This document shows, piece by piece, positions 19,526 to 64,000 of a stretch of 64,000 nt of DNA. The DNA comes from Phoenix dactylifera. Its lineage: Eukaryota > Streptophyta > Magnoliopsida > Arecales > Arecaceae. The position numbers and the translations under genes are program-made. Positions within the stretch are counted from its first letter, which is position 1, and every line of letters starts with the position of its first letter. Location: assembly GCF_009389715.1 (NCBI RefSeq), contig NW_024067823.1, positions 62,001 through 126,000 of the forward strand. Direction: 5' to 3'. The notes under the pieces are model-generated. The model was not told the origin of the DNA. It saw only the letters and a program-made list of their open reading frames with translations, and searched no databases.

Positions 19526-22500
19526 ATGTCAGTTGATCGTAATTGGATGTACCACCGACTTAGTGAAAATGGTTATATAAGAGCTGAGTTCTGTGATGGA
19601 GTTAAAGGGTTCCTTGAGTTTGCATTTACTCAGTTAGAGTATTGTAGTGGTGATAAGATTAGATGCCTTTGTATAAGATGTGACAACCAGAAATTTCTTA
19701 ACCGTGATACGGTCAATGTTCATCTGTTGAGAAAGGGGTTTACACCGGGATATTCAACATGGTTTGCACATGGGGAGTTACTTGGTGCAGTTGCTCCTGT
19801 AAGTACAAGTGCAGTAGAAGCATCCACATCAATGGATGTTGGTTGTGAACATGGTCAGCAATATAGAACCATGGTGATGGAAGCTATGGGTCCAGAAGAG
19901 GAACTTCATTTGAGAAGTGCATTTGAAGTTAATCATGAGGAAGAGCCAAATAAGGATGCTGCAGATTTTTATTCTTTGTTGAAAGATGCAGAAGTACCTT
20001 TGTGGGAAGGGTGTAAAAAACACTCTAAGTTATCTGCTATTAGTCAATTATTAAATTGCAAGTCTGAATTTAATATGAGTATATCTTGCTATGATCGAAT
20101 CATGAAAATAGTGAAGAATATGTTGCCGGAAAGTGAGAAGCTGCCCTCTGATTTCTATCAATCAAAGAAGATGCTTCGGAAGTTGGGGTTGGAGTATACA
20201 AGTATTGATGTTTGTGAGAATAATTGTATGCTATTCTATAAGGAAACAGAGAATTTGATTGAGTGTACTATTTGTGGTCATCCTCGTTATAAACTCAGAA
20301 GAAATGATGGTGGTGGTAGAAGAAAAGATGTTCCTTATAGAAGGTTGCGATATCTTCCAATAACACCAAGACTTCAGAGGCTTTTTATGTCAAGCAGAAC
20401 GGCTGAACTCATGTCATGGCATGTGAAGGGAGGTGATTCAGATGAGATGGTGCATCCTGCTTGTGGGGAGGCTTGGAAGCACTTTGACCGCATTCATCCA
20501 TCCTTTTCTACCGAGCCTCGTAATGTTAGACTTGGGTTATGTACGGATGGATTTAACCCCTTTAGCCAATCAGCTCGTCCTTATTCTTGTTGGCCAGTTT
20601 TCGTAACAGTTTACAATCTTCCACCATCAATATGTATGAAACGACCCTACATTTTTCTAAGTTTAGTCATTTCTGGACCTAAGAGCCCTGGCAAAAGTAT
20701 TGATGTCTTGCTTAGGCCTTTGATTGATGAACTTAAAATATTATGGGAAGTAGGGGTCACCACTTATGACATCTTTAGAAAAGAGAATTTTCAAATGAAG
20801 GCAGTTTTATTATGGACTATCAATGATTTTCCTGCATATGGCATGCTTTCAGGATGGAGTACGCATGGAAAGTTGGCCTGCCCGTATTGTATGGAGAACT
20901 CAAAAACATTTACACTACAACATGGTGGGAAGACTTCTTTTTTTGACTGCCATCGTCAATTCTTGCCCATGGACCATGCATACAGATACCAAGTTGATAG
21001 TTTCTTCAACGGTAGAATAGAGACAGACCCCCCACCTCGTCGACTGTCTGGTGAGGAGTTGAAAAATAGGATCTCTGCTTTGCCTAATATAACTTTTGGT
21101 TTGAAAGCTCCTAAGCACACCATTCCTGGATTCGGTAAAGATCATAATTGGGTGAAAAGGAGCATATTTTGGGAGTTGCCCTATTGGCATACACTACTTA
21201 TTCGACATAATTTAGATGTCATGCATATTGTTCGGAATGTGTTTCTCAATATATTTTACACTTGTATGGATGTAAAAGGGAAGACTAAAGATAATGTGAA
21301 AGCAAGGCAAGATTTGGAGTTGTATTGCAAGCGTCCTAAGTTGAGGATTCAATTTGTTAATAGAAAGCTAGTTAAGCCTCCAGCTTCCTATGTATTGTCC
21401 AAAGACCAAGCAATGGAGGTCTGCGAGTGGGTGAAAGGGTTAAGACTGCCTGATGGATATGCTTCAAACATATCGAAGTGTGTTAACCTGGATGATTATA
21501 AGTTTTACGGGTTAAAAAGTCACGATTGTCATGTTTTCATGCTGAGATTGCTTCCAATTGCATTCCGTGAAGTATTGCCAGCACCAGTGTGGGATGCATT
21601 GACAGAATTAAGCTGTTACTTTAGAGATTTATGCAGCACAACTTTGCGTGTCCAAGATATGGAGGTTCTTGAGAAAAATATTGTGGTAACTCTCTGCAAA
21701 CTTGAGAAGATATTCCCTCCTGCATTTTTTGACTCAATGGAGCACTTACCTGTTCATCTAGCTTATGAAGCTAAGGTTGGGGGGCCCGTGCAGTACAGAT
21801 GGATGTACCCCTTTGAAAGGTAACAATTTCTGTAAATCCATTAATATAGTTTCTTTGTATCCATTAAATTTGAGAAATTAACATATTAATCTTATTTATA
21901 GGCTTATGCATGATATAAAGCAGAAGGTAAAGAATCGAGCATCGATTGAAGGTTCTATTGTCGAGGCTTACATTATAGAAGAAATATCAACTTTCTGTTC
22001 GCATTATTTTGAGCCTTCTATACAAACGAGGTTAAATCAAGTTCCCCGTAATGAAAATGAAGGGGAGTTTGATCTCGTGGATCGTCTATCCATTTTTACT
22101 CATCAAGGTCGACCTTTTGGAAAACCTTCTGCAAGGCATTTGACTACTCAGGAGTTTAATGCTGCTGAGTTATATGTTCTTCTTAATTGTGTAGAGGTTC
22201 AACCTTTTGGAAAGTAAGTTACACAAGTACTTAATTATAATCATGCTTAAAAATGCATATGGAGTACAATATATGTGATTATAGCTTTTGTCTTGTAGGT
22301 ATTTTGATGATTATATCCGTCAATCTTGTCCAAATATAAGCCAAATTGATTTGGAAAGACGACGCGAAATGGAGTTTCCGGCTTGGTTTAGATCATATGT
22401 GAGCTGTAAATTCATAAATATAATAATAAATTAGACTTTCACTTGATTTATTCTTACGATATTATTTTTATCATGCTAGGTTAATGACAGTAAAAATCAT

Positions 22501-25842: not shown

Positions 25843-26612
25843 CCTAGGATCACCTCCAGCTTGCTTTATTATCGATCTCAGTAAATCAAACTCGGAGAAA
25901 TCTTGAGACACGCACAACCAAATCCGTGACTTTGGGTTGAAGTTATCCTGAAGCTTCTCATCATTATAAATCTTCTGAGCAAGAGTAGTTTTGCCTATCC
26001 CCCCATGCCAACAATGGTAAACACTTGGATTTTTTTGTTATCTTCCTTTATCAGCAAATCCGCCAACCTCCTTGTATCATCCCCAATTTTCTCTCCCACA
26101 AGATCAGGTTCAACAATAGGAGATGTTTTGCGGGTTATTCTACATTTGTAACGGTCATCACGAGGAGCAGGTGTAAGATGAAGACTATCTTTGCGCTTGG
26201 CAAGTTGTTCAAGCTCACGGTTGAGATCTCTAATTTTTTTGCCAATCTCATGACGAAATCTAACTTTGTGCAAGCAAGCAATAGGAGGATAGCAACAACA
26301 TACCGATTCAGCATGACGAGATGTGGATGAGTTTGGGTTGAGAAGCTTCTCGCCCTCGATCCGGCATTCATCGAGGATGTCATCTGCATCGTACATGAGA
26401 TTTCGTAGCTCGTTCAGCCAACGATTGATGGGCTGGTTGTCCTCGAGGCGTCTATTCTCTGCATCAGCGAGAACGTCCTGTATCATCTCTAGCCACTTGT
26501 GGACCTTCTTGATTTCCTCGGGCATACCCAAGATCTTGGCAGCCTCTTCCTTTGCATAGATTGATAGCATCCAACACAAACGAGCGGCGAAGGCATCCAG
26601 GACCATCGCCAT
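25843..26612 (-). pseudogene. 5' part of a broken CNL resistance gene (Rx_N to P-loop and beyond)
   Basis: The frame starts MAMVLDAFAARLC at 26612. An Rx-type coiled-coil domain follows (about residues 1-120, with EDNQPINRWLNELRNLMYDA), then TSPIVEPDLVGE and the start of the P-loop (VGMGG). The P-loop has lost one base relative to the copy at 48823-48845, so GMGG is followed by a stop instead of IGKTT. Beyond it, sequence like FSEFDLLRSIIKQAGGDP continues to 25843, where the CACTA element interrupts. It is a close duplicate of the gene at 46384-49444, which has MALNLDAFVSSFC at the same place. The CACTA insertion, the LTR insertion and the P-loop frameshift make it a pseudogene. Confidence 0.9.
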
Positions 26613-26715
26613 TTTTTCGATTCAACTTGTACAAAGACGAGACACTAGCTGAAGGTTGGTGGGAAGGAGTAGACGAAATATTGCCCATCCAACTGGTAGA
26701 GACTTGCCCATGAAT

Positions 26716-29230: not shown

Positions 29231-31003
29231 AATTGACCAAGCCAATTAAGGCTGGAAATAGGCTCAGGCCAGGCTTCGGGCTAGGCTCAAAAAAATCCGG
29301 AACGGATTTGGGCTTAAATATAGAGCCCATTTATTTTTCAGGCCGAGCTCGGGTATGTGATCGGCCCGAGCCCGAGCCCGAGCAGGAACAAGGAGGAGCC
29401 CGAATTAATTTGTCGTTATATGTTGTTATTTAGAGAGAATATTGAGGAAGTAAAGGACAAATGAAAATGAATTTAGTTGAGAATAATTTCATGTATTATT
29501 TACTTATATTATAGAAGAAAACCTAATTTTTAATTAGTTCATTTACTTATGAAGCAATATTATAAAATATTAAACTTCAATTGTATCCGAACCGGAGTTA
29601 CAAGCTGGGTACTGCCCGAGTACCGGAGCGGTTCGGAATTTCCAAATTGGGTCAACTTGGATTCGAGTTACAAGAAGGATAGAGCTTACATTAGGATCCC
29701 CGAGCTGGTCTAGAGAGAGAAAAAGGAGAGAGAATCTTAGCTTGGGCCTGGATTTGGTCTAATTCTGGTCTTGGGCTTGGTTCGAATGGTTCGGATCGAC
29801 CATCGGAGGAAAAGTCTAGATCTAGACAGAATGTGGGCTTGCTTAGAGAGAGAAAAAGATATACAATCTAAGGCTAATTGAATTTTTCGATTTGATCCAC
29901 TTAGGTGCAATCAGAGGCTTGGTCTATTCGGTCCGGTTTGACTAAAATCGAAAAAGAGATATTTGGCCTGGGTCGACTGGATCAATCAATGTTTTTAGTC
30001 CATCATGAGCGGACTTGGCCCACAATAGATGAACAGAGCCCAAAATGAATACGACACATAATAGATGAGCAGGGCCCGAAATGAATGAACACGGCCCAAA
30101 ATGAATATGGCCCATAATGGATGAACCAAAATAAACAAGGCCCACAATGGACATGACCCACAATGGATGAACAGGGCCCAAAATGAATACGACCCACGAC
30201 GGATGAATAGGCCCATAACAGATGAACAGGCCCACAATGGATGAACAGGCCCGAACATGGCCCACAATGGGCACGATCCAACAAGGTGAACAGGGCCCAA
30301 ACTTAGCCCATAATGGGCATGGCTCAACAGGGCCCGAACTTGGCCTATAATCGACACGGCCTAATAGGGCCCAAATTTGGCCCACAAAGGGATGACCCAA
30401 TAATATCCAAACTGACTGAACTGGGTCCAAATTTAAACTACAATGGGTACGGTCCAACAGGGTCTAAATTTACTAAACTTGGTCCAAATTTAGCCTACAA
30501 TGGGCACGGCCCAATAAGGCCCAAAATAACTGGACTGGGCCCAAATTTTAACAGGGCCCAAACCTGGCCCAGTTCGGCCCAACAGGGGGGTTCTCTATCC
30601 CAAAAAATAAGAAACAGGGGGGAAAGGAGAAGAGAAAGAAGAGAGGAAGAAGAGGAGGAAAGGGAGGCTGATGGCCTGGTGGTGGCTCGGCCAGTGGCTC
30701 ATGGAGGCATGACCGGCAGCGAGGTGGCTACGGCCTGCGACACAGTGCTGCGGTGGCACGGCCATGAAGAGGAAAATCGAGGACACCCTCAGTTTAGATC
30801 CGAAATCGGGGAAAGGAAAAGCTTGATTCAGTTTAACCAGAAATGGAACAAAGGGAAGATGGCTTACCGGCATGTCGATGGAGGGGAGGATCTCAGCCGT
30901 TGGCGGCTCTGTCTGGCGGCTAGCAGCAGCAGAGCTCCAAAATAAGGAGCAGGAGCCTCGGAATAGAGTATGCGGAGGAAATGGAGAGAGAGAAGGGAAA
31001 GAG
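29231..31003 (-). repeat. Left part of an older minus-strand LTR holding the LTR element at 31004
   Basis: Rich in GGCC/GGGCCC phrases, with a degenerate tandem array (30008-30590) and a mixed-purine segment. It is separated from its partner segment 43018-43616 by a younger element whose TSD AAGAG flanks both sides, so the two were once contiguous. The left boundary is not visible. Confidence 0.5.
30008..30590. repeat. Degenerate GGCCCA-rich tandem array
   Basis: Units of about 25-38 bp such as GGCCCACAATGGATGAACAG and GGGCCCAAATTTGGCCC recur about 18 times. Three overlapping minus-strand frames (for example at 29942-30457) arise from the period and are not genes. Confidence 0.8.
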
Positions 31004-31422
31004 TGTGAGGACCAGCCCACATACAGTGAGCTAATGGGCCAAGCCCAACCTGGCTGGCCCATCCGGAGACCTAGAGGCGGTGATCGCCAGCCGAGACGGT
31101 TACAACCGCCTGACAGCCACGATCACTACCACTCTCCTCCTCTAGCTGAGGGCTATTAAGGCTCATGGATCCCTCACAGAGGAACTCCATCACTCTCTCA
31201 TTTCTTCTCATTCCCCTCTTTTTCTGCTACAAGGAACTGAAGCAGGGGCAATATCATCGGAGTAGGGATCCGAGCCGCCGGAGGGAACATCACATAGTTG
31301 TCCCGGAGCTAGGTGAGTCGTCCATCCCTTCCATTTCATATTCCGATCTATCCGGATAAGTGATCAAAACAAAAGAAAAATAAAGAACGAAAACAAAAGA
31401 AGAAGAATAGGTAGAATAAGAA

Positions 31423-31453
<31 letters not shown>

Positions 31454-33700
31454 AAGAAAGGAAGGGGTTACCGGTATGCTTAGCCGCAGTGGTCGATGGC
31501 CAGAGGCCTTTTCTCTCCTCCTTTGGTCGCAACGAGCTCGGCCGCAGCCGTGCCCGCATCCATGGCTGCAGCCGTGCCTGCATCCATGGCCGCAGCCGTG
31601 GGTTATTTCCCTACCCTAATGGGAACGAGGGAGGAGCCGCCGGCTCGGGCCACCATGGAGGCCATCGGGCCGACCGCAGGTGTCGGCCGTGCGTTACGCG
31701 TGCACCACTGGCTTCGGCCTATTCTGCCGCCCCTCGACGGGTGGCCGTGCCCCATCTCCTCCACCGGAGGTGGAGTAGGAGAGCTCCCAGTCGGGTCGTG
31801 GGTGCTGCGGGTGGAATCACGATCGCCGCAGGTGCCGCCGGTTGGTCGCAGCACCGCCAGCTTCGGGCTGGTCTCCTCCCGGGCACCCCTCCGAGCTCGC
31901 TTCTTAGTTCATGGGAGACGAGGAGAAAAGGAGGAGTGGATCGGGAAGAGAAGAAGAATGGAGAAAAAAGGAAGGTTCGGGAAGGGAGGAGAAGAAAGAA
32001 AAGAAAAAGAAGAAAGAAAAGAAAAAGAAAGAAAAGAAAAGGAAAAGAAGAAAAGAAGGAAAAGGAAAAAGAAAAATAAAATGAAGAGTTCGGTGGGCCG
32101 AAATGGGCCTAATTTCGGGGTGGGCTTCAAATGGATTTGGATTTAGAAGTCTGAAGCCGGGCTGGGCCCTGGTCCGAGCTAGATAATTTTTAACTCAGAA
32201 TTTAATGAACCAATATACAATTGACCCAAGCCTGAACCATTAACCGAACCAGAAGGTGAACCAGACCTGAACCAGAAATTAAATCAAATCTGAACTAGGA
32301 AGTAAATTAGACCAGAACCAGAAATTGAATTGGGCCATGGGCCTGAACCAAAAATTGAATTAGGCTATGAACCCGAAAATAAAATTGAGTCCTAAGGATG
32401 GGCTGTAAATGACTTTAAGATTATAAATAAATAAAAATTAAATGTGCAAGTGACATGTAATTTGATAATCTTGCTAGGTATTGGAGAATTGGCATGTGGT
32501 GAGCAAATTAATGTAAGTAACCCTGATATAATCTTATGTTTGATTTAAAAAGTTGTAACTTCTCGATTATGAAATTGTATATGGTTATTTATGTTTTCAT
32601 AAAATTAGGATCAAGCATGTGTTAGCAAATGATTACATGGTTTTGGACAAATAGCATCCATCATGATTATTATTATATTATGTACACATGATTATGATGT
32701 TGTAGAAAGATGCATAGAAAAATAATGTTTTCAGCATGATCATGAGTTTTATTCAGCATGATGCTATTATTCACTTTTCAATGTATCGATGAAAAAAGAT
32801 TTATGAAAAGCATGATATGTTTTAAAGAACTCTCAGATTGCTATATACGACCCCCGCCAGTGGGTAACAGTAACTAGGCATACGATCCCAGCCAGTGGGT
32901 AAAAATAACTTGGCTTTACGACCCCCGCCAGTGGATAATAGTAACTGGAAGATGACCCTGCAGTGGTAAAGGCCTTGCCGTGGGAATAAGAGCGGCCATA
33001 GCTACACTACAATCTAAAAGTATGGATTTCAAAGTATGGAATAATGGCAAAAGTTTTATAATGCACAAATAGCAAAAATTTTATGATGCATAAATGGCAA
33101 AAGTTTTATGATGCATAAATGACAAAAGTTTTATGATGCATAAATGGCAAAAGTTTTATGATGCATAAATGACAAAAATTTTATGATGCATAAATGGCAA
33201 AAGTTTTATGATGCATAAATGGCAAAAGTTTTATGATGCATAAATGGCAAAAGTATTATGATGCATAACCATGTTTATGAAATTGCATAAATGGACATGC
33301 ATAGTTTGATTACTGGTCTGATTATAGAAAATGCTTTTTTTATTAAAACTATTTGTTCTTCAAATATTGCATTAGCATACAAAATATTATGCTTGATCCG
33401 ATAAGATTATGCTTGTTTACTTACTGGGCTTTATAGCTCACACCATTTTATTTATGTCTTTACAGATGAATAGGAAATGTTAGGGACAAGGAGCGTAACG
33501 TGCTCCGGGGTTATGGGAATGACGAATGTTAAATGTTGATATTGTTTTTAGAAGCTTGTATGGATTTTAATACATGAACATTTAATGACTTTCATGAATA
33601 TAATTGTTTACAATTTGAAGTTTTAAAGTAGCTGCATGTTATTGTATACTTTACTTGGCAATAACATGGCCGTGTCATAAACCGGATTCGGGGCGTGACA
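31004..33700 (+). repeat. 5' LTR of the LARD element (2,697 bp)
   Basis: Contains, in order: GC-rich U3, a (GAA)n microsatellite (about 31424-31458, absent from the other LTR), a Gly/Ala-like GC stretch, an AAAAGAAAAAG-type purine tract (31990-32080), three 35-bp repeats with CCCCCGCCAGTGGG (32847-32951), a 25-bp array (33047-33268), and the end CGGGGCGTGACA. Frames of 196 and 216 codons (31489-32146) recur in the other LTR but overlap each other and are compositional. Confidence 0.9.
33047..33268. repeat. 25-bp tandem array in the 5' LTR
   Basis: About nine units of ATGGCAAAAGTTTTATGATGCATAA type. The same array in the 3' LTR (37898-37996 and 42407-42575) is the target of the inverted-LTR insertion. 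Confidence 0.9.
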
Positions 33701-33717: not shown

Positions 33718-35831
33718 AATAATTTTAACCATGATTAAAAACTTTAAGACTAATCATGGGAATGGGTAGTTAAGTTAGCTTTCACATAATTGGAATAACA
33801 ATAATAATAATAATAAAATATATATATTAATAAAATAATAATTTTGGGTTATATTGTCTTAGGTGACAATGAGCAACAAAAAGAAGAAATGTGGAGCTAA
33901 TACAAGCCATTCTAGAGACGTGATTGTGATAGAAAAACTATCAAAGCCTTGGGTAAGATCATTGTGAATTGTGATTGGAAAACTACCAGAGCTTAGGTTA
34001 AGATCACATAGGATTGTGACAAAATTAGAATTAGAGATTAAGTTTAAGATCACTAGGGTTTGCAACAGAAATGTATCATAGCTTAAGGTTATGATCACTT
34101 AGGACGTGACAAAAGTAGTAAAATTATATTCAGTGCTTAAGTGAAAGATCACTAAGCATTGTAAGTACCGGGTTTGGTATTCGATGAGTACGAAAGTATT
34201 GGATAAGATGTTTTTGATCATGATGAGAAATGTTTGACCTAAGATAAGTGTTTGACCTAAGATAAGTGTAGAAAGGTTAAATATGGCATAGCGGTTATAC
34301 TATGTGCGGATATTGTTTAACTGACTTGAAAGTTTAAAATTGATATAGATTTGGATGTGATTATTAGAGTGTGATTTGTACATGGATTGGTCATAGAATT
34401 GGAATGAGTCAGGAAAGATTTTATTTTATATAGTATTATAAAGGATTGTTTTTTAAGGTTAAATCCGTATGTGGATTATAATTGGTGTTGGCATACTTGG
34501 ATATTGCAAATAATTGTATTCTACTGGTGGATTAAATTCTTAAGTGCATATTGATTGGGGAATTCTAGTTATTGAGTTTTTATGTTTGCATTGGGCTATT
34601 AAATCTTTCTCATAATTATTGGACACTATTGGGTGTGTTAGTTTAACCTCAAGTCTAGGTTTATGATTTGACAAAGGATCTTTGATATTGAGTGGAGACT
34701 TTGATTTTGGAGATACTTATTAAAATCGGAATGCTTGCTAACTGGGCTCGTAACCAAAGTGTGAATAAGCTATGTTGGGAGTCCTCTTGGTGAATATTTT
34801 AAGTTATGATTAATTGGATTTTGACCAAAATTTAGTGAAAGAGAATTGATCATGGAATATTATCATGCAATGTAATTTTTTGTTTATTAGTCAATTTGGA
34901 AGTTCATTTTGATATGGGGGTATATTGTAATATTACTTCTAGCTTGGAGTTAATCATTTTGTGGCAAGTTAGGATCTCTTTATAAGAAATTGTTTAAGAT
35001 TTAAGCTATAAAATATTTTTATGCTACCTAATTAAAATACTCTTCGAGGTTTGAACATGTTTGGGGAGTATGAATGAAACTCTTATATTGAAGAAAAATA
35101 TATTGCGAGTTATTGCAAATAGGTCTATTTTTGATTTTATTGTATTCATCTTGGTGAAATTATTAATAGACTTAATCATCGTCTTTGGATCCAAATAATA
35201 AATTTTATTTTTATCTATCGTAGACTATGTGATGTATATGAAATTTCAATTGAAAATTCGGGTATATAAGTTGATCTAGGGTCATTTGTCAATATTGTTG
35301 AGGTTATTGTGGAAACCTAAATTTGTAAGAAGAATTTAAATTTTAGAGACTTAGATGGTTAAGATGGAAGATCTTTGAGGTTTGACTCATTTGTGTTGAA
35401 TTAAAGTCTTGTAATTTAGTGGAGCATTAAAAAAAAATTATGGTTATAAGAGTTTGACTTGGAATCGTCCAGTTGAATTGATAAGAGAATTAAGATTCAA
35501 TACATTTTGGGAATTATAGTAACGAGCCCATATGATGATTTTGAATGGAACAATTGACTTGAGAGTTAATCTAGATTAGATGTATTTAAGAATCAAATAT
35601 TCTTTCTTTTAGGCTTTACTTGGAAAATTGAAAATATGGATCTCTTTAGTTCATAAAACAAGTAGTATTTTGATCAAAAGTTATTAGTGAATCCAAGAAT
35701 TTTAGTATTTTCAATCAGAGTGCGCAGCAGAAACATGGTAGAATGTTGGATAAAAGACTAAGTAACTTCATTTGTTTAAGAATTAAGGTATGTAAATTTC
35801 GAGGACGAAATTACTTTTAAGGGGAGAAGAA
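33718..35831 (+). other. Non-coding interior of the LARD element
   Basis: About 2.1 kb of AT-rich sequence with no gag, protease, RT or integrase motif in any frame. Near 33900-34170 a loose repeat of GATCACTAGGATTGTGAC phrases occurs four times. It ends in the polypurine tract AAGGGGAGAAGAA (35819-35831). Confidence 0.75.
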
Positions 35832-37996
35832 TGTGAGGACAAGCCCACATACAGTGAGCTAATGGGCCAAGCCCAACCTGGCTGGCCCATCTGGAGACCT
35901 AGAGGCGGTGATTGCCAGCCGAGACGGTTACAACCGCCTGACAGCCACGATCACTACCACTCTCCTCCTCCAGCTGAGGGCTATTAAGGCTCATGGATCC
36001 CTCACAGAGGAACTCCATTACTCTCTCATTTCTTCTCGTTCCCCTCTTTTTCTGCTACAAGGAACTGAAGCAGGGGCAATATCATCAGAGTAGGGATCCG
36101 AGCCGCCGGAGGGAACATCACATAGTTGTCCCGGAGCTAGGTGAGTCGTCCATCCCTTCCATTTCATATTCCGATCTATCCGGATAAGTGATCAAGAAAG
36201 GAAGGGGTTACCGGTATGCTTAGCCGTAGTGGTCGATGGCCGGAGGCCTTTTCTCTCCTCCTTTGGTCGCAGCGAGCTCGGTCGCAGCCGTGCCCGCATC
36301 CATGGCCGTAGCCGTGCCCGCATCCATGGCCACAGCCATGGGTTATTTTCCTACCCTAATGGGAACGAGGGAGGAGCCGCCGGCTCGGGCCACCATGGAG
36401 GCCATCGGGCCGACCGCGGGTGTCGGCCATGCGTTACGCATGCACCACCAGCTTCGACCGGTTCTGCCGCCCCTCGATGGGTGGCCGTGCCCCATCTCCT
36501 CCACCGGAGGTGGAGGAGGAGAGCTCCCAGTCGGGCCGTGGGTGCTGCGGGTGGAATCACGATCGCCGCAGGTGCCGCCGGTTGGTCGCAGCACCGCCAG
36601 CTTCGGGCTGGTCTCCTCCCGGGCACCCCTCCGAGCTCGCTTCTTAGTTCATGGGAGACGAGGAGAAAAGGAGGAGTGGATCGGGAAGAGAAGAAGAAAG
36701 GAGAAAAAAAGAAGGTTCGGGAAGGGAGGAGAAGAAAGAAAAGAAAAAGAAGAAAGAAAAGGAAAAAAAAAGAAAAGAAAAGGAAAAGAAGAAAAGAAGG
36801 AAAAGGAAAAAGAAAAATAAAATGAAGAGTTCGGTGGGCCGAAATGGGCCTAATTCCGGGGTGGGCTTCAAATGGATTTGGATTTAGAAGTCTGAAGCCG
36901 GGCTGGGCCCTGGTCCGAGCTAGATAATTTTTAACTCAGAATTTACTGAACCAGTATACAATTGATCCAAGCCTGAACCATTAATTGGGTCAGATCTGAG
37001 CCAGTATGCAATTGATCCAGACCTGAACCGAAAATTGGGTCAGATCTGAGCCAGTATGCAATTGATCCAGACCTGAACCAGAAATTGGGTCATATCTGAA
37101 CCAGAAGGTGAATCAGACCTGAACCAGAAATTAAATCAAATCCGAACTAGGAAGTAAATTAGACCAGAACCAGAAATTGAATTGGGCCATGAGCCTGAAC
37201 CAGAAATTGAATTAGGCTATGAGCCCGAAAATGAAATTGAGTCCTAAGGATGGGCTGTAAATGACTTTAAGATTATAAATAAATAAAAATTAAATATGCA
37301 AGTGACATGTAATTTAATGATCTTGCTAGGTATTGGAGAATTGGCATGTGGTGAGCAAATTAATATAAGTAACCCTGATACAATCTTATGTTTGATTCAA
37401 ATACTTGTAACTTCTCGATTATGAAATTGTATATGGTTATTTATGTTTTTATAAAATTAGGATCAAGCATGTGTTAGCAAATGATTACATGGTTTTGGAC
37501 AAATAGCATCAATCATGATTATTATTATATTATGTATACGTGATTATGATGTTGTAGAAAGATGCATAGAAAAATAAAGTTTTCAGCATGATCATGAATT
37601 TTATTCAGCATGATGCCATTATTCACTTTTCAATGTATTGATGAGAAAAGATTTATGAAAAGTATGATATGTTTTAAAGAACTCTCAGATTGCTATGTAT
37701 GACCCCCGCCAGTGGGTAACAGTAACTAGGCATACGACCCCAGCCAGTGGGTAAAAATAACTTGGCTTTACGACCCCCGCCAGTGGATAATAGTAACTGG
37801 AAGATGATCCTGCAGTGGTAAAGGCCTTGCCGTGGGAATAAGAGCGGCCATAGCTACACTACCATCTGAGAGTATGGATTTCAAAGTATGGAATAATGAC
37901 AAAAATTTTATGATGCATAAATGGCAAAAATTTTATGATGCATAAATGGCAAAAGTTTTATGATGCATAAATGGCAAAAGTTTTATAATGCATAAA

Positions 37997-40900
37997 TGAT
38001 AAGTGCTAAATAATGCATAAATTAATATCTTATTCATAGCACTTAACATTATTTTAATATATATATTTTGTAAAGTTAACCATAAAAGATGTGTTACCCT
38101 CATCATTGTATTTTAATAAATTAATTTGAGTTTGATTTAATTATTTATTAATTGAGCCTAATGTTTGCAGGTCAAGTCAAATTCACTCTGAACCCAAATC
38201 GCATGCAGCTCCGAAAATCAACCAGTGCCTTTCATCCCACGTGTCTCCTCCTTTTTCCCACGCTTTCAAAACAAAGCCATCGTCACAGACATCATCCCAA
38301 ACCTCCCAGCTATCAGCCGTTCATCCCATTCCCTTCCAAATTCAAGGAACAGAAACGTCCATCGTCCAAGATCTTTATTCCATTCTCTTTCCAGCCGATT
38401 CTAGCTCTCTCTTCCATCCTTATCCAATCGCAAGATAAACTTCCAGCAAACCTCTCAGCATCAAAGGATCACGTCCACGAATCAAACCAAGTTTCCTTCC
38501 GTATCCAACGAGCAAAACCAATCCTTCATCCACGGATTTCCCCCAGCATCCTCATCCTCTTCCTCCGAAATCTTCTCAAACGCCCACAGGATGAACTCAA
38601 ATCCCAGCAATCTCAGTGAACTTCCTTCATCCCATTCCATTCTCAACACCCCACCATTCGCAAGGAACTTCAAAACCCCTCAACCCGAGCTGATTGCGTC
38701 CCAAACAACATCATCCCGAATGCCACGGAATTCTCAGCATCACCATGAACACATCGGTTCTTTCTTCCAGGCAAACAACAGCAAATTAAACTCTCAAACG
38801 ACATTATCTTAACTGATTAAACATCTCAACCAGCAATCTCCTGAGTTTCATGGATTCCCAGCTTCGAACTTCATCTGTTTCCCGATGGATTATCACCTAC
38901 TCCATGCGTATGGGTTCCTTTTACTCATCGAAACCGAATCCCCTGTTTCAGCCGCGAAGAGCAAAATTACCCAACAGATTGCAACAAAACAACTGATTCA
39001 TTCACATCCCCTACTCCTAAATCATCTCCTCTTCATCACAAATCAAAACAACCGCTTCCCCCTCCACGGATAAGCTCCCAGCAATCAAATTTCCTTCCGG
39101 ATTCCCCTGCTTCAGAACAGAATGTTAACAGTCCACCCAACCGAGATGAATCCAATGAGTTCCAGCTTTCCTCCCAACGTTTCTAGATTTATTCCATAGA
39201 TTATCTTCTGGATATCCTCTTCTGATTCAATCCAACTATCCTACCGTTCGCAGCTTCCAACATCCATGGGATAAAATTCAATCAAAGCACACCGAGCTTC
39301 ACGGCATCCCCTGCATCCAATAGATTCAACTCTCATCCCATCGTAATCTGTCTTTGTCCACGTCTTCAACCGAACCCAACATCCGCATCTCTCAGCTTCT
39401 TCTAAATCCACTGCATCTCAGAAGTTTATCTTTCCGAAAATCAAGCATCTCTTCCTAACGCTCGAATCAAATCTTCTACATGTCGCCCGCTGCCGTGAAA
39501 CAGAAGCCGTTCCTCCATCCTCATCCTTTCACTCGGGAAGTTTATCCTCCGGATGCCAACAGAAGATAGAGAAGGCTATAAAAGGGAGTCGATGATGAAG
39601 GCTAGAGGCATTCTCTTCCATTCCTCCTTCCCCATCGGGCCGGGGGGGGGGGGGGGGGCATCCCTCTTCCCCCACCGGGGGCTGTTCCCAACTCCTCTTC
39701 GGCAAGCTCTTCGGAGGCCAAAATCCCGCAGAAGACAGAGGAGGGAGAAGAGTTTCTGGGCATTTTGGGAATGATTTCCCAAAGAAAGGAATCGATCTCA
39801 GGGGAATCACAAGAGGAAGAGAAGAAAGTGACAGGAGCCCGCTGCTGTGCTGCTACTGCCGTCCTCCACTGCATGGAAGCTTAAATTCCTTCTAGGGCCG
39901 GATGCAGCCCTAACAAAGGGACACGGGTTTTATATTTTATTTTATATTCTTGGGGTTGTATGAACTTATTGTTTTTAATGGATATCTTCTTTTGAATCAT
40001 ATTTAATTTCTGTGATTTTAAGTATGATGTTCGTACAACTGTTCTTCATGATCACTAGGTAAATATAAGATAGTCCATGCTTAGGGAAGATGCGATGTGC
40101 TGCCACCTTAGATTAGGGTAGACATTTCATGCCAATTGAAGATGGATTATGCCCAAATTACTTTTGTGAAATTTTATTCAAATGCTTATTAGGCTTGTAG
40201 CCAATTTGCATGTTTATCCAAGAATAAATTAAAATATAAATAACCCTTGTTTCGATGTTAGTGGTGGATTCCTTGCCCTAGGTTCTCCCAAACTGATATC
40301 CTTTTAATTGCATTTTGCTTTATTAAAATTCCTTAGTTTAATTTTCTTCACCAACTCTTTCTTTTTAAATATTTTATTTTTTTTAAAGAAAAACAACTAT
40401 ACCCCAATCCCTGTGGATCGATACCCGTAATCACTATCCTACTAGATACGTGCTATTGCATGGACTATCTTATATTTACCTAGTGATCATGAAGAACAGT
40501 TGTACGAACATCATACTTAAAATCACAGAAATTAAATATGATTCAAAAGAAGATATCCATTAAAAACAATAAGTTCATACAACCCCAAGAATATAAAATA
40601 AAATATAAAACCCGTGTCCCTTTGTTAGGGCTGCATCCGGCCCTAGAAGGAATTTAAGCTTCCATGCAGTGGAGGACGGCAGTAGCAGCACAGCAGCAGG
40701 CTCCCGTCACTTTCTTCTCTTCCTCTTGTGATTCTCCTGAGATCGATTCCTTTCTTTGGGAAATCATTCCCAAAATGCCCAGAAACTCTTCTCCCTCCTC
40801 TGTCTTCTGCGGGATTTTGGCCTCCGAAGAGCTTGCCGAAGAGGAGTTGGGAACAGCCCCCGGTGGGGGAAGAGGGATGCCCCCCCCCCCCCCCCCCGAT

Positions 40901-42406
40901 GGGGAAGGAGGAATGGAAGAGAATGCCTCTAGCCTTCATCATCGACTCCCTTTTATAGCCTTCTCTATCTTCTGTTGGCATCCGGAGGATAAACTTCCCG
41001 AGTGAAAGGATGAGGATGGAGGAACGGCTTCTGTTTCATGGCAGCGGGCGACGTGTAGAAGATTTGATTCGAGCGTTAGGAAGAGATGCTTGATTTTCGG
41101 AAAGATAAACTTCTGAGATGCAGTGGATTTAGAAGAAGCTGAGAGATGCGGATGTTGGGTTCGGTTGAAGACGTGGACAAAGACAGATTACGATGGGATG
41201 AGAGTTGAATCTATTGGATGCAGGGGATGCCGTGAAGCTCGGTGTGCTTTGATTGAATTTTATCCCATGGATGTTGGAAGCTGCGAACGGAAGCAGGGGA
41301 ATCCGGAAGGAAATTTGATTGCTGGGAGCTTATCCGTGGAGGGGGAAGCGGTTGTTTTGATTTGTGATGAAGAGGAGATGATTTAGGAGTAGGGGATGTG
41401 AATGAATCAGTTGTTTTGTTGCAATCTGTTGGGTAATTTTGCTCTTCACGGCTGAAACAGGGGATTCGGTTTGAATGAGTAAAAGGAACCCGTACGCATG
41501 GAGTAGGTGATAATCCATCGGGAAACAAATGAAGTTCGAAGCTGGGAATCCATGAAACTCAGGAGATTGCTGGTTGAGATGTTTAATCAGTTAAGATAAT
41601 GTCGTTTGAGAGTTTAATTTGCTGTTGTTTGCCTGGAAGAAAGAACCGATGTGTTCATGGTGATGCTGAGAATTCCGTGGCATTCGGGATGATGTTGTTT
41701 GGGACGCAATCAGCTCGGGTTGAGGGGTTTTGAAGTTCCTTGCGAATGGTGGGGTGTTGAGAATGGAATGGGATGAAGGAAGTTCACTGAGATTGCTGGG
41801 ATTTGAGTTCATCCTGTGGGCGTTTGAGAAGATTTCGGAGGAAGAGGATGAGGATGCTGGGAGAAATCCGTGGATGAAGGATTGGTTTTGCTCGTTGGAT
41901 ACGGAAGGAAACTTGGTTTGATTCGTGGACGTGATCCTTTGATGCTGAGAGGTTTGCTGGAAGTTTATCTTGCGATTGGATAAGGATGGAAGAGAGAGCT
42001 AGAATCGGCTGGAAAGAGAATGGAATAAAGATCTTGGACGATGGACGTTTCTGTTCCTTGAATTTGGAAGGGAATGGGATGAACGGCTGATAGCTGGGAG
42101 GTTTGGGATGATGTCTGTGACGATGGCTTTGTTTTGAAAGCGTGGGAAAAAGGAGGAGACACGTGGGATGAAAGGCACTGGTTGATTTTCGGGGCTGCAT
42201 GCGATTTGGGTTCAGAGTGAATTTGACTTGACCTGCAAACATTAGGCTCAATTAATAAATAATTAAATCAAACTCAAATTAATTTATTAAAATGCAATGA
42301 TGAGGGTAACACATCTTTTATGGTTAACTTTACAAAATATATATATTAAAATAATGTTAAGTGCTATGAATAAGATATTAATTTATGCATTATTTAGCAC
42401 TTATCA
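37997..42406. mobile_element. 4,410-bp inverted-LTR insertion (near-palindrome) with 5-bp TSD
   Basis: Begins TGATAAGTGCT and ends AGCACTTATCA, flanked by ATAAA (37992-37996 and 42407-42411). The left arm (37997-40080) and right arm (40458-42406) are inverted copies: from the ends to about 39113/41290 positions pair exactly (sum 80403), then the left arm has 131 extra bp (about 39113-39243), then pairing resumes (sum about 80534). Only scattered base differences are seen. The 377-bp middle contains CAATCCCTGTGGATCGATA, typical of the tail of Tat/Athila-type LTRs, and ends CTATTGCA at 40460. So 37997-40460 may be a full LTR (TG...CA) with its first about 2 kb repeated in reverse. No transposase or pol is present. 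Mirror-image frames in the two arms are not genes. Confidence 0.85.
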
Positions 42407-42575
42407 ATAAATGGCAAAAGTTTTATGATACATAAATGGCAAAAGTTTTATGATGCATGAATGGCAAAAGTTTTATGATGCATGAATGGCAAAAGTTTTA
42501 TGATGCATGAATGGCAAAAGTTTTATGATGCATAAATGGCAAAAGTTTTATAATGCATAAATGGCAAAAGTATTA
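42407..42575. repeat. Continuation of the 25-bp array after the insertion
   Basis: About six units of AATGGCAAAAGTTTTATGATGCAT resume right after the target copy ATAAA, showing the insertion split this array. Confidence 0.85.
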
Positions 42576-43017
42576 TGATGCATAACCATGTTTATGAAAT
42601 TGCATGAATGGACATGCATAGTTTGATGACTGGTTTGATTATTAGAAATGCTTTCTTTATTAAAACTGTTTGTTCTTCAAATATTGCATTAGCATACAAA
42701 ACATTATGCTTGATCCGATAAGATTATGCTTGTTTACTTACTGGGCTTTATAGCTCACACCATTTTATTTATATCTTTACAGATGAATAGGAAATGCTAA
42801 GGACAAGGAGCGTAACATGCTTCGGGGTTATGGGAATGACGAATGTTAAATGTTGATATTTTTTTTAGAAGCTTGTATGAATTTTAATACATGAACATTT
42901 AATGACTTTCATGAATATAATTGTTTACAATTTGAAGTTTTAAAGTGGCTGCGTGTTATTGTATACTTTACTTGGCAATAACATGGCCGTGTCATGAACC
43001 GGATTTGGGTCGTGACA

Positions 43018-46383: not shown

Positions 46384-49300
46384 TTATCGGATCAGAGGCC
46401 AATCAGGCAGCTCTCGGTGACAAATTTTGTTTTTGAGAGTCAACTTGTGGAGGGAAGGCAAGCGCGGTTGTTCTTCACCAGCACCCGTTAACCACTCTGG
46501 AAGAGACTCTACTTCTCGATCATCGAGCTGTATGTGCTCCACGGCATCCACACCCTCCACAACCTTCAATCCCTCACAAGCATAAACACCTAAGTGTTTG
46601 AGTACAGGAAAGTTGGACACACTCACCAACCTTGAGCTGTGGACCAAGATCAATTCTGTAAGAGAGGGAAGGTTTTGTATTTCTCTCAAGCTGTGGGCAC
46701 TTCTAATTCGTAACTCCTTCAGTGCGGTGGCATAGCAGAGGAGGCTCTCCGGAAGAGACCTCAACTTTGGACACATATCAATGATCAATTTGTTAAGAGA
46801 AGGTAGCAACGATGTCGTCTGGTTGTCCTCATCCTCCCACCGCCACCACCATTTTTCCCAATTAGTCATGTTTCTAAATCCAAGTGTCTCTAGTTTGGGG
46901 AAGCAGGGAGAGAAGCAAGAGTCCGCCAGCAACAAGAATTCAGGCCCGATGCTCGTGACTTCAGAAGCACCTGAAATCCAGAGGCAATCTAGTTGTGGCA
47001 GCATACCCAAGCGTGGAAGTTGCCGGCATAGAGCACAATTCGTCAGATCTAGCCTTCGCAGGTTGCGGAACGATGACGAGGAGGGTGTCATCATCCAGTT
47101 GGGAAACTCAAGGCCAAAGTAGCCATCGATTAGAAGCACTTCAATGCATGGCGGTGGGCGGAGCTCCTCGAATACCTCCCTAATTCTGTTGATATCTTCC
47201 TCCTCATAATCATTGGCATGAGGCAGCTGCACATCAGAAGAGCTGCTCGGTAGCGTGCAATACAAATATAGGTAGACAAGATGGGGCTTGGCTTGAAGTG
47301 CAGCGGCTTTTGCTTTAGCCCTGTCTGATACCCTCTCCAATTTGACCATGCTAATATACCTGAGCTGGGAGAGGGATTTCAACTCTTCCAAGGTGCAACC
47401 ATTTGCTACAAATCCCCGAAGTGAACGTAGTTGTTTTAGTCTCCCTATTCCCACAGGCAGACCATCAAGTGGTGCACCCCAGACGTCTAGAATCCTTAGA
47501 TTGATTAACCCCATGACACCATTAGGAAGGTTGCGCAAATATTTGCAATCCTCGAGCATCAGGAATAGAAGGTTTCTAAGATTCTCTATACTCTCCGGTA
47601 TCTCTCTTATTTTTGTATGAGAGAGATCAAGACGTCTAAGGTGCACAAGATCTCCCAAGGAAGTTGGGAGATTGGCAATGGTTGTTTCACTTAAATTCAG
47701 CCCCCTTAAACTCCTCAGCTTTCTAAAGAGATCTTCTGGAAGATTGTGAATAAGTGGGGTATGGAAGAATGATAGAGTCCTCAAGGATGTCTGTTTCATT
47801 ATCAAGTCGGGTATGGTTTCTAAGTTTCCATCTACAATTGATAAATGGCGTAGTTTTATCGATGAAGAGGAGGACTTGATCTTGTTTTCAAATGCTCGTG
47901 CATCGCCGACAAAGCACTCATCCCCTGCTACATGCTGAGCTAGAGATCGCAGGAGGTCATGCATCTACAACCTTGCTCATCATAATATCGAGGATCTGGC
48001 TGTAGAAGGTTCCTTTGCACCAACTCCTTCCAATATCCTTTTACCACATCTTCCAAGGGCGTATCGTCTTCGGATGTTACAAAGCCATCTGCAATACAAC
48101 TAAAGCCAAAAGTTCTCTCCAAAATTAGGTAGTCCTCAGGAAATAATGAAAGGAAGGTGAAGCATTGCTTCAGAGGAGGCGGTAAATCTTGATAGCTCAA
48201 GTACAATGGGCCCATCTCCTCTTTTGGAAGTTTTGTAAAGACCATGCTGGGCTAGAGAGGACTTTTTCCCATTCTGAATGCCTTTTCTCCTTTGTTCGAA
48301 GAACCCCACCAACAGTCCGAAGAGCAAGCGGAAGGCCATCACATTTCTCTACAATTCTCATTCCGACACCACTTAACACATGCATGTCTCCTTCCTCACA
48401 TTCCTTAAATACCATCCTGCATATTAATGACCAACCATCCTTTTGAGACAACTGCTCCACCTTATGGATGTATACTGCTCTCATCTGTCTCGCAATGGCT
48501 TCATGTCTACTTGTTATCAAAATTCTACTATTTGCCAAACCACTTTGCAAGGGCTTTCTCAGTAGCTCATCCCATACTTGAGCATCCCAAACATCATCAA
48601 GGATTAAGAAGAACTTCTTGTTTGTGATGACTTGGCTAAGCATGGGTTCAAGTACCTCCTTCTCCTTAGCTTCTCCAGGATCACCTCCAGCTTGCTTTAT
48701 GATAGATCTCAGTAAATTGGACTCGGAGAAATCTTGGGACACGCACAACCAAATTTGTGGCATTTGGTTGAAGTTGTTCCGAAGCTTCTCATCATTATAA
48801 ATCTTCTGAGCAAGAGTAGTTTTGCCTATTCCCCCCATACCAACAATGGCAAAGACTTGGATTTTTTCGTCATCTTTCTTTATCAGCAAATCCGCCAACC
48901 TTCTTGTATCATCCTTAATTTTCTCTCCCACGAGATTAGGTTCAACAATAGGAGATGTCTTGCGGCTTATTCTACTCTTGTAGCGGTCATCACGAGGAGC
49001 AGGTATAAGATGGAGATTATCTTTGCGCTTGGCAAGTTGTTCAAGCTCACGGTTGAGATCTTTAATTCTTTTGCCAATCTCATGACGGAATCTGACTTTA
49101 TGCAAGCAAGCAATAGGAGGATAGCAACAACGTACCGACTCAGCACGACGAGATATGGATGAGTTTGGGCTGAGAAGCTTCTCGCCCTCAATCCGGCATT
49201 CGTCGATAATGTCGTCTGCATCGTACATGAGATCTCGTAGCTCATTCAACCAACGATTGATGGGCTGGTTGTCCTCGAGGCATCTATTCTCTGCATCAGC

Positions 49301-49444
49301 GAGAACGTCTTGTATCATCTCCAGCCATTTGTGGAGCTTCTTGATTTCGTTGGGCACACCCAGGATCTTGACCACCTCTTCCTTTGCAGAGGTTAACAGC
49401 ATCTTACAAAAACTAGAGACGAAGGCATCCAAGTTCAGCGCCAT
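46384..49444 (-). CDS. CNL disease-resistance protein (RGA-like), reading frame shifted twice
   Basis: Intracellular immune receptor of the coiled-coil NB-ARC-LRR class. The start is taken as MALNLDAFVSSFCKMLL (49444), the start also used by the duplicate at 26612; an in-frame ATG lies 11 codons upstream. Rx_N covers about residues 1-120. NB-ARC shows P-loop VGMGGIGKTTLAQ (about 200), RNBS-A PQIWLCVSQDF, kinase-2 KKFFLILDDVWDA (about 277), RNBS-B SRILITSR and GLPLAL (about 366). One frame change lies at 48200-48245, after which RNBS-D-like LKQCFTFLSLFPEDYLI follows. A second lies near 47960, just before MHDLLRSLAQHV. The LRR part (47964-46384, about 526 residues) has at least ten repeats, including LRGLNLSETTIANLPTSLG. 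Total about 1,020 residues, normal for the family. Each change is compatible with one missing base, so it is either a young pseudogene or a good gene with two assembly errors. Confidence 0.9.
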
Positions 49445-51046
49445 TTTTTCGCTTGAACTTCTACAAAGAGGAGACACTCAGTTGGAGGAAGAGAAGAAAA
49501 ACAAGCTGGCCAGGCAGGTGATAATGCTGAGAAGATTCATGGGGGTAGCGCTTTCAAGTGAATAAGTAATATTTTTCCTCTGTCATTGTCATGTAGGAAG
49601 CCAGCCTGGGTCCACACCTTCTGGGACCATTTAATGGCGTCGTTAACCTTCTTTTAATATTTTCTATTCGTTGGAACAGGGACTTAGCAAGCATTTCTTT
49701 TTATTATTATTATTATTATATTCTGAAACCATTGTTTATTTTTATTTATAAAGAAAGTGTCATTTATCTTCTCTCTATGTATTTGATTTGCTGGAATAGA
49801 GCTTTCAATGGAACAAGTATTTCTCATTCTATTTTTCAAAACAATATTGTTTTATTCTTCCATTCTCATCTTGCATCGAGGAAGCGAGCTGGGTCCACCA
49901 TTTACTCGGACCATTTAATGGTGGTGTTACGCTTCTTTTTATTTTTTTTGGAACAGTTCTATCAACTGAGCAAGCATTTTTTATTTTATTTTGAAACATA
50001 TTTGTTTTTATTTTTTTTATTTATAAGGAAAGTGTCGTTTACCTTGTTTCTATAGTTTTATAAAAAATCTATTTGAGATATAGAAAAATCCAATTCCTAT
50101 CAATTGGAAATTAAGATAATCTGACATGAAAAAATAAATCTAAAATCATATTTTCATGTTTAGTATGAAAAATGGATGAAACAAATATGAAAAAATAAAT
50201 GGTAGGTTTTATATCTATTTTTCTAAAAGAGAGAGAGTAAAACAAATTTATTTATTTATCGTAAGGGATATATTTCCTAATATATGTCTAATTAATTTAA
50301 AAATATTTATTTACTCGTGTAAATATATTTTAATATTTGAAATAATCAATATTGATAGTGTTTATCTTATTGGGCCGTAAATGGCCAATAAATGAGAAAA
50401 TGGTATTACCTAAATTTTAAGAGTATTATGGAAAATTTGGCAATATTGCCATATAAGATTCCCACTAACCAAGCATAGTAATTTTTTCTATTTTTTCAAA
50501 TAATTTTTTCATCAACTAAATATGATAAATTTTATTTTTTTTATAATTAGTTTTTAGAATAAATAATTTCTAAGAATTGCCAAATTATCTAATTCACTTG
50601 AAACGGGGCTCGTGATAAAAGAAAAATGGTACAGATCTTTTTGAAACAACATAGCAAGACCCCTAATATTTTGGGTTGTGGATTCGAAAGTGATGATATA
50701 GCAATTAACAAGGAGCCGTTTACATCTTATATAAGTTAAGAGTTTACATTATATACGTAAAGATTTTGGAGTTATTAAATCTTTATGTGGCATTAACCTT
50801 TTCAAGGTTATAAAATGGGAAAAAAACCATGCATTTGGAAAGTAAATGCTCTGAAGGTTTTCATTTATAGATTTTTTTGAAATAATTTTGTGAAAGGGCA
50901 TCCAATTCTGCATATTATAAATAGTAAGCTATACTCAAATCCAATTTGAGCCATTATTTATGGTGGAAGGTCATTACTGAAAAGTTTGAAAAGTTTGCAG
51001 TCAGCATGAAGGGTGCTAAATCACCTCGTGTCCCCATCCATAAGTG
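49445..51046. other. Upstream region of the CNL gene
   Basis: AT-rich, no gene. It contains a diverged tandem duplication (about 49575-49857 and 49858-50060). Likely holds the CNL promoter, but no clear TATA box position can be assigned. Confidence 0.5.
49575..50060. repeat. Diverged tandem duplication of about 284 bp upstream of the CNL gene
   Basis: AGGAAGC...GCTGGGTCCAC, GGACCATTTAATGG and AAGGAAAGTGTC-type blocks occur in the same order from 49595 and again from 49879, an offset of about 284 bp. Confidence 0.8.
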
Positions 51047-56050: not shown

Positions 56051-57174
56051 ATCGATATAGACTTTAAAAAATATCTAAAAAAATAAATATTTTTGTAATG
56101 ATGTCTCTAATTAAAATAATTGTACGAAATTTATAATTTTTTATTTTTATTTGTGAATTTGATCTTTGTATGCATAAAGGCATAAAAATCTGGAATAAAA
56201 ATTAATCAACATGTTTTCCAAAAAACAAAAGGATTCAAAACGGCATCATATTTTAAGTACTTGGTATATATTTATAAGCTTTATACAACCATCTATTGGA
56301 TGCTATGTACCTATTAAAGGGGTTGTATGTATGCTTCATGATACAAGCACTAAGGATTATTGTATAAGGTTAAAAAGAATCCTGCTGTTAAGCATTAACC
56401 ATGTAGATGTACCAAAAAGAATTCAAAATACAACCATGTAATATTATTCTTCATATAGTCATGTGTAAAATTGGTCTTGTATGAGCATGTGAAAATGTTA
56501 TATCACTATGAATTTTGAAAGGATAATAATTATGTGAAGCAATTTGTATAACTGTTATGTATCACATGCAATTAGTAATCTTACAATACAATAAAATGAC
56601 ACCTGTTTTTTTTGAAGGGGACACAACACCGTCCTATTTATTAAAGGGAAAGAATGTGCAAGAAAATATGAATACCAAGAGACAAAATCAAGAAAAAGAA
56701 AAAGACTGAGCTCTCATTGACAAACTATATTTCGGATAATATTCCACAACTTAGCAATGTTGGCCAACTGTTTTTGAGGGCAAAACATGGACTATTAATT
56801 GTATGGTTTGAGTCCTATAGATCTTGAACACTTCGGTTTCCAGTAGTTCTAGCTGTTAAAAATATGAAAGTTTTTCTCTCTAACAAGCCCATAAGATAGC
56901 CGCCGATCCAACTAGAAAACTATAAAAAGACATATGTAATAAATAATATACAAGTATTCAGAAGTTTATTGTAAAGATAAAAGCCTTGAACATGCTTTAA
57001 AGTGTATCTGCAACAACACGTAATGGTTGCACAAAGGTTTCACCGACTTGGGACAAATTCTTTACACACATGGCATTGTCATTGACTCATTGGTATTATG
57101 GTACCATATAGATAGTGGTTTTCCTGATGTATTTTCAAATGTCAACTGTCCAAATAAAAGCCTTGAACTGCATG
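56051..57174. other. Spacer; possible LINE tail on the minus strand
   Basis: No gene recognised. At 56608-56660 the minus strand reads CCTTTAATAAATAGGACGG, then TGTTGTGTCCCCTTC followed by A-run, which resembles the 3' end of a plant LINE; the call is weak. A 112-codon plus frame at 57027 crosses into the LTR at 57175 and is not a gene. The five bases before the LTR are CTGCA. Confidence 0.35.
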
Positions 57175-57641
57175 TTAGAATAATTTCAAAATATGGGCAT
57201 ACACTGATTGCGTATTTTTGTTTTATAAAACGGGTTAGACGTATGGCTCAGAATGGTACTATGATTAAGCCCAATATGATGTGTGATCATTTTGTTTTAT
57301 GGGCTTTGGTGCACCTTGGATGTATAGGATTGAGTCCTATTTATTGTGGTACTTTTGGTATGTAGGCCAGGAAACCCAATTAGGGTTTTGGAGCCTTTAA
57401 TGGGAAGGCTCCTCTATGTTTCCTATATATAGGCTAGGTCCCCCTCTCCTCTCCATATGGTTGATAGCTTGCCCCATTGACGGCTATCTTTTGTGAGGAG
57501 CAAGGAAGGGAAGATCCAGCCGCTATTATTCCAGGTGATTGAAGAACGTATTCAATATGTCTTCCGCAGGTATATCTCTCAAACTTGAATACGGCATTAT
57601 TGTGATTCTAAATCTTAGCATGTTATTATTTATGACTAACA
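57175..57641 (+). repeat. 5' LTR of the TAR-like copia (467 bp)
   Basis: TGTTAGAATAATTTC at the start and GACTAACA at the end. A TATA box (CCTATATATAGGCTAG) lies at about 57421-57436. Positions 57175-57385 repeat at 63790-64000. Confidence 0.9.
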
Positions 57642-63789: not shown

Positions 63790-64000
63790 TGTTAGAATAA
63801 TTTCAAAATATGGGCATACACTGATTGCGTATTTTTGTTTTATAAAACGGGTTAGACGTATGGCTCAGAATGGTACTATGATTAAGCCCAATATGATGTG
63901 TGATCATTTTGTTTTATGGGCTTTGGTGCACCTTGGATGTATAGGATTGAGTCCTATTTATTGTGGTACTTTTGGTATGTAGGCCAGGAAACCCAATTAG
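63790..64000 (+). repeat. 3' LTR of the TAR-like copia (first 211 bp)
   Basis: TGTTAGAATAATTTC onward; I see no differences from 57175-57385. Confidence 0.95.

Follow-up and report, generated by a model that had tools for sequence, protein, structure and literature searches.

An inverted dimer of a retrotransposon long terminal repeat with a 5-bp target duplication in the date palm genome

The palindromic insertion and its target site

The subject of this analysis is a palindromic insertion of 4.4 kb found in a 64,000-nucleotide stretch of the date palm (Phoenix dactylifera) genome, referred to below as the window (positions 62001-126000 of contig NW_024067823.1, here C176, in an assembly of 773 Mb and 2391 contigs). 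The insertion (37997-42406) consists of one long terminal repeat (LTR) of a retrotransposon and an inverted copy of the same LTR. Both of its outer ends are the U3 terminus, TGATAAGTGCT beginning at 37997 and AGCACTTATCA finishing at 42406, and the insert is surrounded by a perfect 5-bp duplication (ATAAA). This structure is best read as an LTR dimer in inverted arrangement that was integrated through both of its U3 ends; its formation during reverse transcription is what we infer. The following features are discussed below.

33043..33294, plus strand: paralogous minisatellite array without the insert, used for empty-site comparison; not an allele, and two units shorter (self-comparison of the window)
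37992..37996, no strand: left copy of the target duplication, ATAAA (from the sequence; removal of the insert and one ATAAA gives back the 25-bp unit)
37997..40459, plus strand: left LTR, from the U3 terminus to 23 bp before the U5 end (comparison with LTRs of ordinary members)
39113..39243, plus strand: 131-bp segment that relatives have and the right arm lacks (arm alignment; search with a 251-bp query)
39577..39583, plus strand: TATAAAA, predicted core promoter of the left LTR (motif only)
40081..40457, plus strand: 377-nt loop, the part of the left LTR without a mirror copy (inverted-repeat search)
40458..40463, no strand: joint, GCATGG (comparison with family LTRs; 33-mer search of the genome)
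40458..42406, minus strand: right arm, inverted LTR copy running from LTR position 2084 back to the U3 terminus; GC (40458-40459) is common with the left LTR
40951..40957, minus strand: right-arm TATAAAA, predicted promoter oriented towards that of the left LTR (motif only)
42407..42411, no strand: right copy of the target duplication, ATAAA (from the sequence)

An inverted-repeat search paired 37997-39113 with 41290-42406, 39241-39654 with 40880-41293, and 39642-40080 with 40458-40896, each at 99% identity. In a gapped alignment of the arms, a comparison that the earlier note on this DNA had proposed, the left arm (37997-40080, 2084 bases) and the reverse complement of 40458-42406 (1949 bases) are 99.3% identical, differing by 13 substitutions over 1949 aligned positions (12 transitions and one transversion), one 131-bp gap (39113-39243, missing on the right) and one 4-base gap adjoining a run of G. 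Such similarity of mirrored arms is far beyond chance. Neither the inverted-repeat search nor comparison with ordinary members revealed internal or primer-binding-site sequence between the arms. The earlier note had placed at 37997-42406 an LTR head-to-head with its own inverted copy, mirrored for about 2 kb and joined to the chromosome by two U3 ends within a clean 5-bp target duplication; all of this was confirmed, the outer ends matching the U3 terminus of the parent family and the duplication having the length found in its ordinary members.

The insertion site is a 25-bp minisatellite. When the flanks were joined in a script, minus one ATAAA, an uninterrupted array of 25-bp repeats was obtained, resembling its paralogue at about 33.04-33.29 kb, an array shorter by two repeat units. 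The right flank (42407-43017) keeps its orientation, continues the array and is 95% like the paralogue at 33090-33700. The palindrome sits in the second copy of a tandem duplication of about 2.7 kb (30995-33700 versus 35822-38022 plus 42407-43017, the pieces being 91-98% identical), the first copy of which is without the palindrome.

These flanks bear on the idea that the palindrome is an assembly or read artefact, e.g. a missed hairpin adaptor that was read through. Although palindromes are typical of missed-adaptor reads, the left flank would then be mirrored too, and it is instead followed on the far side by a correctly oriented right flank that matches the paralogue; moreover, the 13 substitutions over both arms and the 131-bp deletion, most of them readable as one-arm changes, make an artefact very improbable. 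The exact outer ends similarly bear on the proposal that an ordinary solo LTR was palindromised after its insertion by chromosomal fold-back or template-switch repair. Hairpin-mediated fold-back inversions are described as occurring in yeast chromosomes (PMC7467729), but copying of this type would overrun the U3 end into flanking sequence on the left, or break off at a random point, whereas the second arm ends exactly at the U3 terminus, adjoining a perfect copy of the 5-bp duplication, so that such an origin appears unlikely. A solo LTR likewise comprises LTR sequence alone with a 5-bp duplication; however, it has one U3 and one U5 end, whereas the window copy has U3 on both sides and has lost the U5 end.

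The parent LTR-retrotransposon family

A 48-mer of the U3 terminus (TGATAAGTGCTAAATAATG) gave 1459 matches at up to 3 mismatches in the whole assembly (745 forward and 714 reverse), and its reversed control gave none at the same threshold. Ordinary members of this family contain two direct LTRs, which start with TGATAAGTGCT and end with GACTATCA. The 5' LTR is followed by ATTTTTGGCGCCGTTGCCGGGGA or a close variant, with the primer-binding site TGGCGCCGTTGCCGGGGA, and the 3' LTR is preceded by GTAGGTTGGGGGGTG or a close variant, with the polypurine tract AGGTTGGGGGGTG. Exact 5-bp duplications surround the members on contigs C1 (ACCAT; C1637 has the same flanks) and C654 (GTACT; C568 has the same flanks), and duplications with one mismatch were found on C705 (GTGAC/GTGGC) and C1260 (ACAAG/AAAAG). 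A parent element with directly repeated LTRs, which the earlier note had proposed to look for, does exist, therefore, with the same terminus and with 5-bp duplications; the LTR end predicted for it, TATTGCA, was wrong, as family LTRs continue with GTGGTCTTTAAAGTTGACTATCA (or a close variant) up to the primer-binding site.

The window copy shares with this family the U3 terminus, present at both outer ends, and the 5-bp target duplication. It differs in containing LTR sequence only, in inverted arrangement, around no internal part or polypurine tract, and is therefore a derivative rather than an intact family member. In its LTR ends, the TGGCGCCGTTGCCGGGGA after the 5' LTR, the AGGTTGGGGGGTG before the 3' LTR and the 5-bp duplication, the parent family resembles plant LTR retrotransposons of the Ty3 type that are non-autonomous and have a primer-binding site of the Asp-tRNA type; compared with these, the window copy is without an internal part and has its two LTRs inverted. 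The family may be Athila/Tat-like and of Ty3 type, an assignment guessed from the Asp-tRNA-type primer-binding site alone. The copies L009 and L013, the two members examined, look non-autonomous, because no sense-strand open reading frame of at least 80 amino acids was found in their internal parts.

Long inverted repeats and a short target duplication are also what an ordinary foldback DNA transposon would display, and a family of such transposons with these termini and a transposase had been named in advance as evidence against an LTR origin. The termini proved instead to be those of an LTR-retrotransposon family whose members have direct LTRs together with a polypurine tract and primer-binding site. 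The joint of the arms was found once, whereas a foldback family would have its inverted arms in several copies mobilised by a transposase, and membership in such a family is of negligible probability.

Two further observations concern the LTRs of the family. Their middle part differs strongly between subfamilies, both LTR ends being conserved. At positions 744-1336 of L013 (contig C1259), the 3' part of an LTR, ending 9 bp past TATTGC, abuts the U3 start of another LTR, and this junction is possibly a nested insertion.

The central joint and the origin of the arms

At the site corresponding to the joint, the sequence in family LTRs is ...CGTGCTATTGC|GTGGTCTTTAAAGTTGACTATCA, apart from small variants, and the window reads ...CGTGCTATTGC|ATGGACTATCTTATATTTACC, the right-hand part being the inverted arm. 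The left LTR is without its last 23 bp, so the joint lies inside U5 and no intact U5 end is joined. The resemblance of TATTGCA to an LTR end is a coincidence of the joint, because family LTRs run 23 bp further. The arms overlap by GC, within GC(A/G)TGG, and the surrounding GCGTGG and GCATGG differ at one base: most family LTRs examined have GCGTGG at this place, and the template of the inverted arm has GCATGG. The parent may have had either base here, because one other LTR among the matches listed (on C5) also reads GCATGG. The 2-bp overlap carries little weight, since 16% of joints placed at random in this LTR would overlap by at least 2 bp. With up to 3 mismatches allowed, the 33-base joint has a single match in the genome, that in the window, and its reversed control has none.

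The position of the joint also disposes of autointegration with an intact U5 end, a candidate that the apparent LTR end TATTGCA had brought up and that was rejected, ordinary LTRs going on for 23 bp. Autointegration joins an intact U5 or U3 end; in the window no such end is joined to an internal site, the joint being 23 bp into U5. The circles with an inverted segment that autointegration produces (Lee and Coffin 1990 and Shoemaker et al. 1980, both in the reference list of PMC12789967) are likewise aberrant complementary DNA (cDNA) products with inverted sequence. A breakpoint hotspot after TATTGC was considered and showed no sign of its presence: an exact pattern, whose last letter excludes the window's own joint and which misses LTRs differing upstream, gave 3 places with a non-G continuation, each explicable by a one-base change. 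The 3' LTR of the family copy on C11 (L030) ends with TATTGC, at about position 9379 of the reverse complement, and other sequence follows, the C705 copy having the full LTR end; that this LTR stops at the same point as the window joint is perhaps chance.

When compared with the relatives fetched, ten of the 13 arm substitutions are best read as one-arm changes (7 left, 3 right), four of these readings resting on a single outside insertion, that on C11; at 38109 and 39481 the changed base is also present in one relative copy. As for the remaining positions, 39803 and 39840 are ambiguous and 38541 is not covered by relatives. A 251-bp query (39080-39330) matched 12 places outside the window at 98-99% (bases 1-251 in 11 places, 3-251 in one), with 40 of 52 first-look candidates scored and some places being one insertion on two contigs. 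The 131-bp gap is most probably a deletion in the right arm, because the segment is present in relatives. The arms would thus have been near identical at birth, since most substitutions are readable as one-arm changes and the gap as a later deletion.

Both arms carry the same mosaic LTR, assembled from at least three subfamilies: positions 1-479 are like C1 and C1637 (92-93%), positions 567-1126 like C11 and C705 (93-94%), and a stretch at about 1084-1334 like C654 and others (98-99%). Among the 40 candidates scored per search, no further copy was seen to combine these three pieces. Moreover, within the 814 positions covered by at least 3 insertions, three bases are common to both arms where the relatives agree on another. 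A shared mosaic with three private bases is what a single source copy would be expected to give. Two independent neighbouring insertions were considered and rejected, given that the arms share one mosaic and the duplication is present only at the outer ends.

The Kimura two-parameter distance between the arms (0.0067) falls at the lower end of the range given by the LTR pairs measured (0.7% for C11, 0.8% for C705 and C1, 1.2% for C1260, 1.3% for C69, 1.7% for C654 and 2.0% for C568). At a substitution rate of 1.3e-8 per site per year it corresponds to about 0.26 million years.

The same data bear on the main rival explanation, namely that two family cDNAs, or fragments of them, were end-joined by the host tail to tail near their U5 sides, and that integrase inserted the product by two U3 ends. 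In favour of host joining, a duplex with a U3 terminus at either end would result without any further step, the GC overlap of 2 bp is of a size usual in end joining, and both states are present in relatives at two arm differences. It must nevertheless be reconciled with the presence of one mosaic LTR in both arms and with the 10 of 12 covered differences that are best read as later one-arm changes, and both cDNAs must therefore stem from a single source copy or from two that were almost alike; each of them must also have been broken or left unfinished inside its first LTR. We regard this origin as possible but rather doubtful.

Possible formation, recurrence and neighbouring features

The reading that we prefer, with a probability of roughly 0.5, is that an inverted dimer of one LTR arose by a template switch of plus-strand strong-stop DNA 23 nt before the U5 end, and was then inserted by integrase through two U3 ends. 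Plus-strand strong-stop DNA starts at the first base of U3, adjoining the polypurine tract. It would have switched onto itself or onto a sister plus strand, 23 nt before the U5 end, where its growing end GCGTGG could have paired with plus-strand CCATGC, one of the pairs being G.T. Copying from there back to its own 5' end would produce a second U3 terminus and no internal sequence. The second strand could have been completed either by a switch between two plus strands followed by fill-in, or by the pairing of two fold-back strands, and integrase would have inserted the dimer as a normal element. We infer integration by two U3 ends because both joints consist of the U3 terminus and a duplication of the family's length.

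Related events have been mentioned or proposed for human immunodeficiency virus 1 (HIV-1). Self-priming of its minus-strand strong-stop DNA is mentioned, citing earlier work, in PMC4668388; there a strong-stop strand likewise folds back and copies itself, but it is the minus strand, whereas the window case assumes the plus strand and a product that was integrated. Transfer of strong-stop DNA between two co-packaged genomes has been proposed for asymmetric HIV-1 LTRs (PMC9278108). Judging by titles and the first parts of abstracts in the open-licence literature, no description was recognised of an inverted LTR dimer that has U3 at both ends and lies within a target duplication. Olsen and Swanstrom reportedly described, in 1985, defective retroviral DNA with LTR-including inverted duplications originating from viral DNA synthesis; compared with that material, the window product lies in a chromosome, within a target duplication.

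The counts of neighbouring copies rest on small samples (100 of 1459 U3 termini, and 40 scored of 1520 first-look LTR-match candidates). Among the former there were 29 same-strand neighbour pairs within 12 kb, one divergent pair (on C12) and no convergent U3-U3 pair. Among the 40 scored LTR matches, the window pair alone is on opposite strands within 10 kb; two further matches beside these were minisatellite. The C12 pair (10042110 on the minus strand and 10044912 on the plus strand) was rejected as a similar palindrome, as its inverted matches are 85% and 93%, its U3 ends point inward and the polypurine motif occurs exactly once; the pair proved to be two different neighbours. The recurrence as a distinct palindromic class envisaged in the earlier note was not borne out, the joint having been found once and no second U3-U3 pair among those listed. 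The insertion is a rare, real event, and a distinct element class is not supported within the searches made.

A palindrome of another type is present in a family copy found on C11 (28214-28224 kb) and C705, between the first primer-binding site and the internal part.

C11:28213950-28223900 (L030) and C705:130850-140800 (L031), minus strand: family copy with a U5-R palindrome and two primer-binding sites (from the sequence)

The order is an inverted U5-R arm, a loop of 81-85 bases, a forward R-U5 arm and the second primer-binding site, the arms being 97.7-98.3% identical. The 45-mer of its junction occurs in 2 places only (C11 and C705) at up to 3 mismatches, and a replicating palindrome was rejected, the two places being a single insertion represented on two contigs, with left flanks that are nearly alike. 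This palindrome looks like self-primed minus-strand DNA formed at the 5' end of the RNA. Taking both palindromes together, reverse transcription in this family might shed fold-back cDNAs from both strands and its integrase might accept two U3 ends, in which case palindromic LTR insertions with two promoters facing each other would be a recurrent by-product and would act as hairpin-RNA loci directed against their own family; this broader proposal is tentative and at present unlikely.

Several points weigh against formation of the window dimer by strand switching, or against its extension to the second palindrome. A simple fold-back strand has one duplex end and integration needs two, so an extra step has to be assumed, and this is the weak step of the scheme. 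The 2-bp match at the joint does not favour strand switching over end joining. At 39803 and 39840 (2 of the 12 covered differences) the relatives show each arm's base, and the arms may have had two slightly different templates. The closest parent copy was not found among the 40 candidates scored per search, and the case stands alone: the joint was found once in the genome, and among the pairs listed no further convergent U3 pair was seen. Finally, the arms of the C11 palindrome have 17 differences in 752 positions, versus 19 in 2598 for its LTR pair (p 0.001), and those on C705 have 12 in 753 versus 20 in 2613 (p 0.05). This divergence does not fit one single reverse transcription; because its arms differ more than the LTR pair, the C11 palindrome is perhaps older than its insertion.

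If the window dimer did arise by strand switching and integration through two U3 ends, it would be a natural chromosomal record of a two-U3-ended cDNA integrated with a correct target duplication, and the integrase involved would not strictly require a U3/U5 pair. It would also show how an LTR retrotransposon can give rise in one step to a foldback of several kilobases whose promoters face each other, a structure from which double-stranded RNA against the parent family could be made. Mu killer of maize is a hairpin-forming inverted transposon duplication. The window insert resembles duplications of this type in being inverted and in having predicted promoters that could yield hairpin RNA.

The window contains several other features of interest. 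Pieces of disease-resistance-type genes, in separate frames with Rx_N, NB-ARC and LRR domains, are located on the minus strand at 46384-49477 and 25995-26621. A CACTA-type transposase (Transposase_21, tnp2) is encoded on the plus strand at 19484-21823, and Copia-type polymerase frames occupy 10113-12422 of the same strand, with RVT_2 in 10923-12422. Identical direct repeats of 212 bases are present at 57172-57383 and 63789-64000, the second cut by the end of the window, and these are likely the LTRs of another element.

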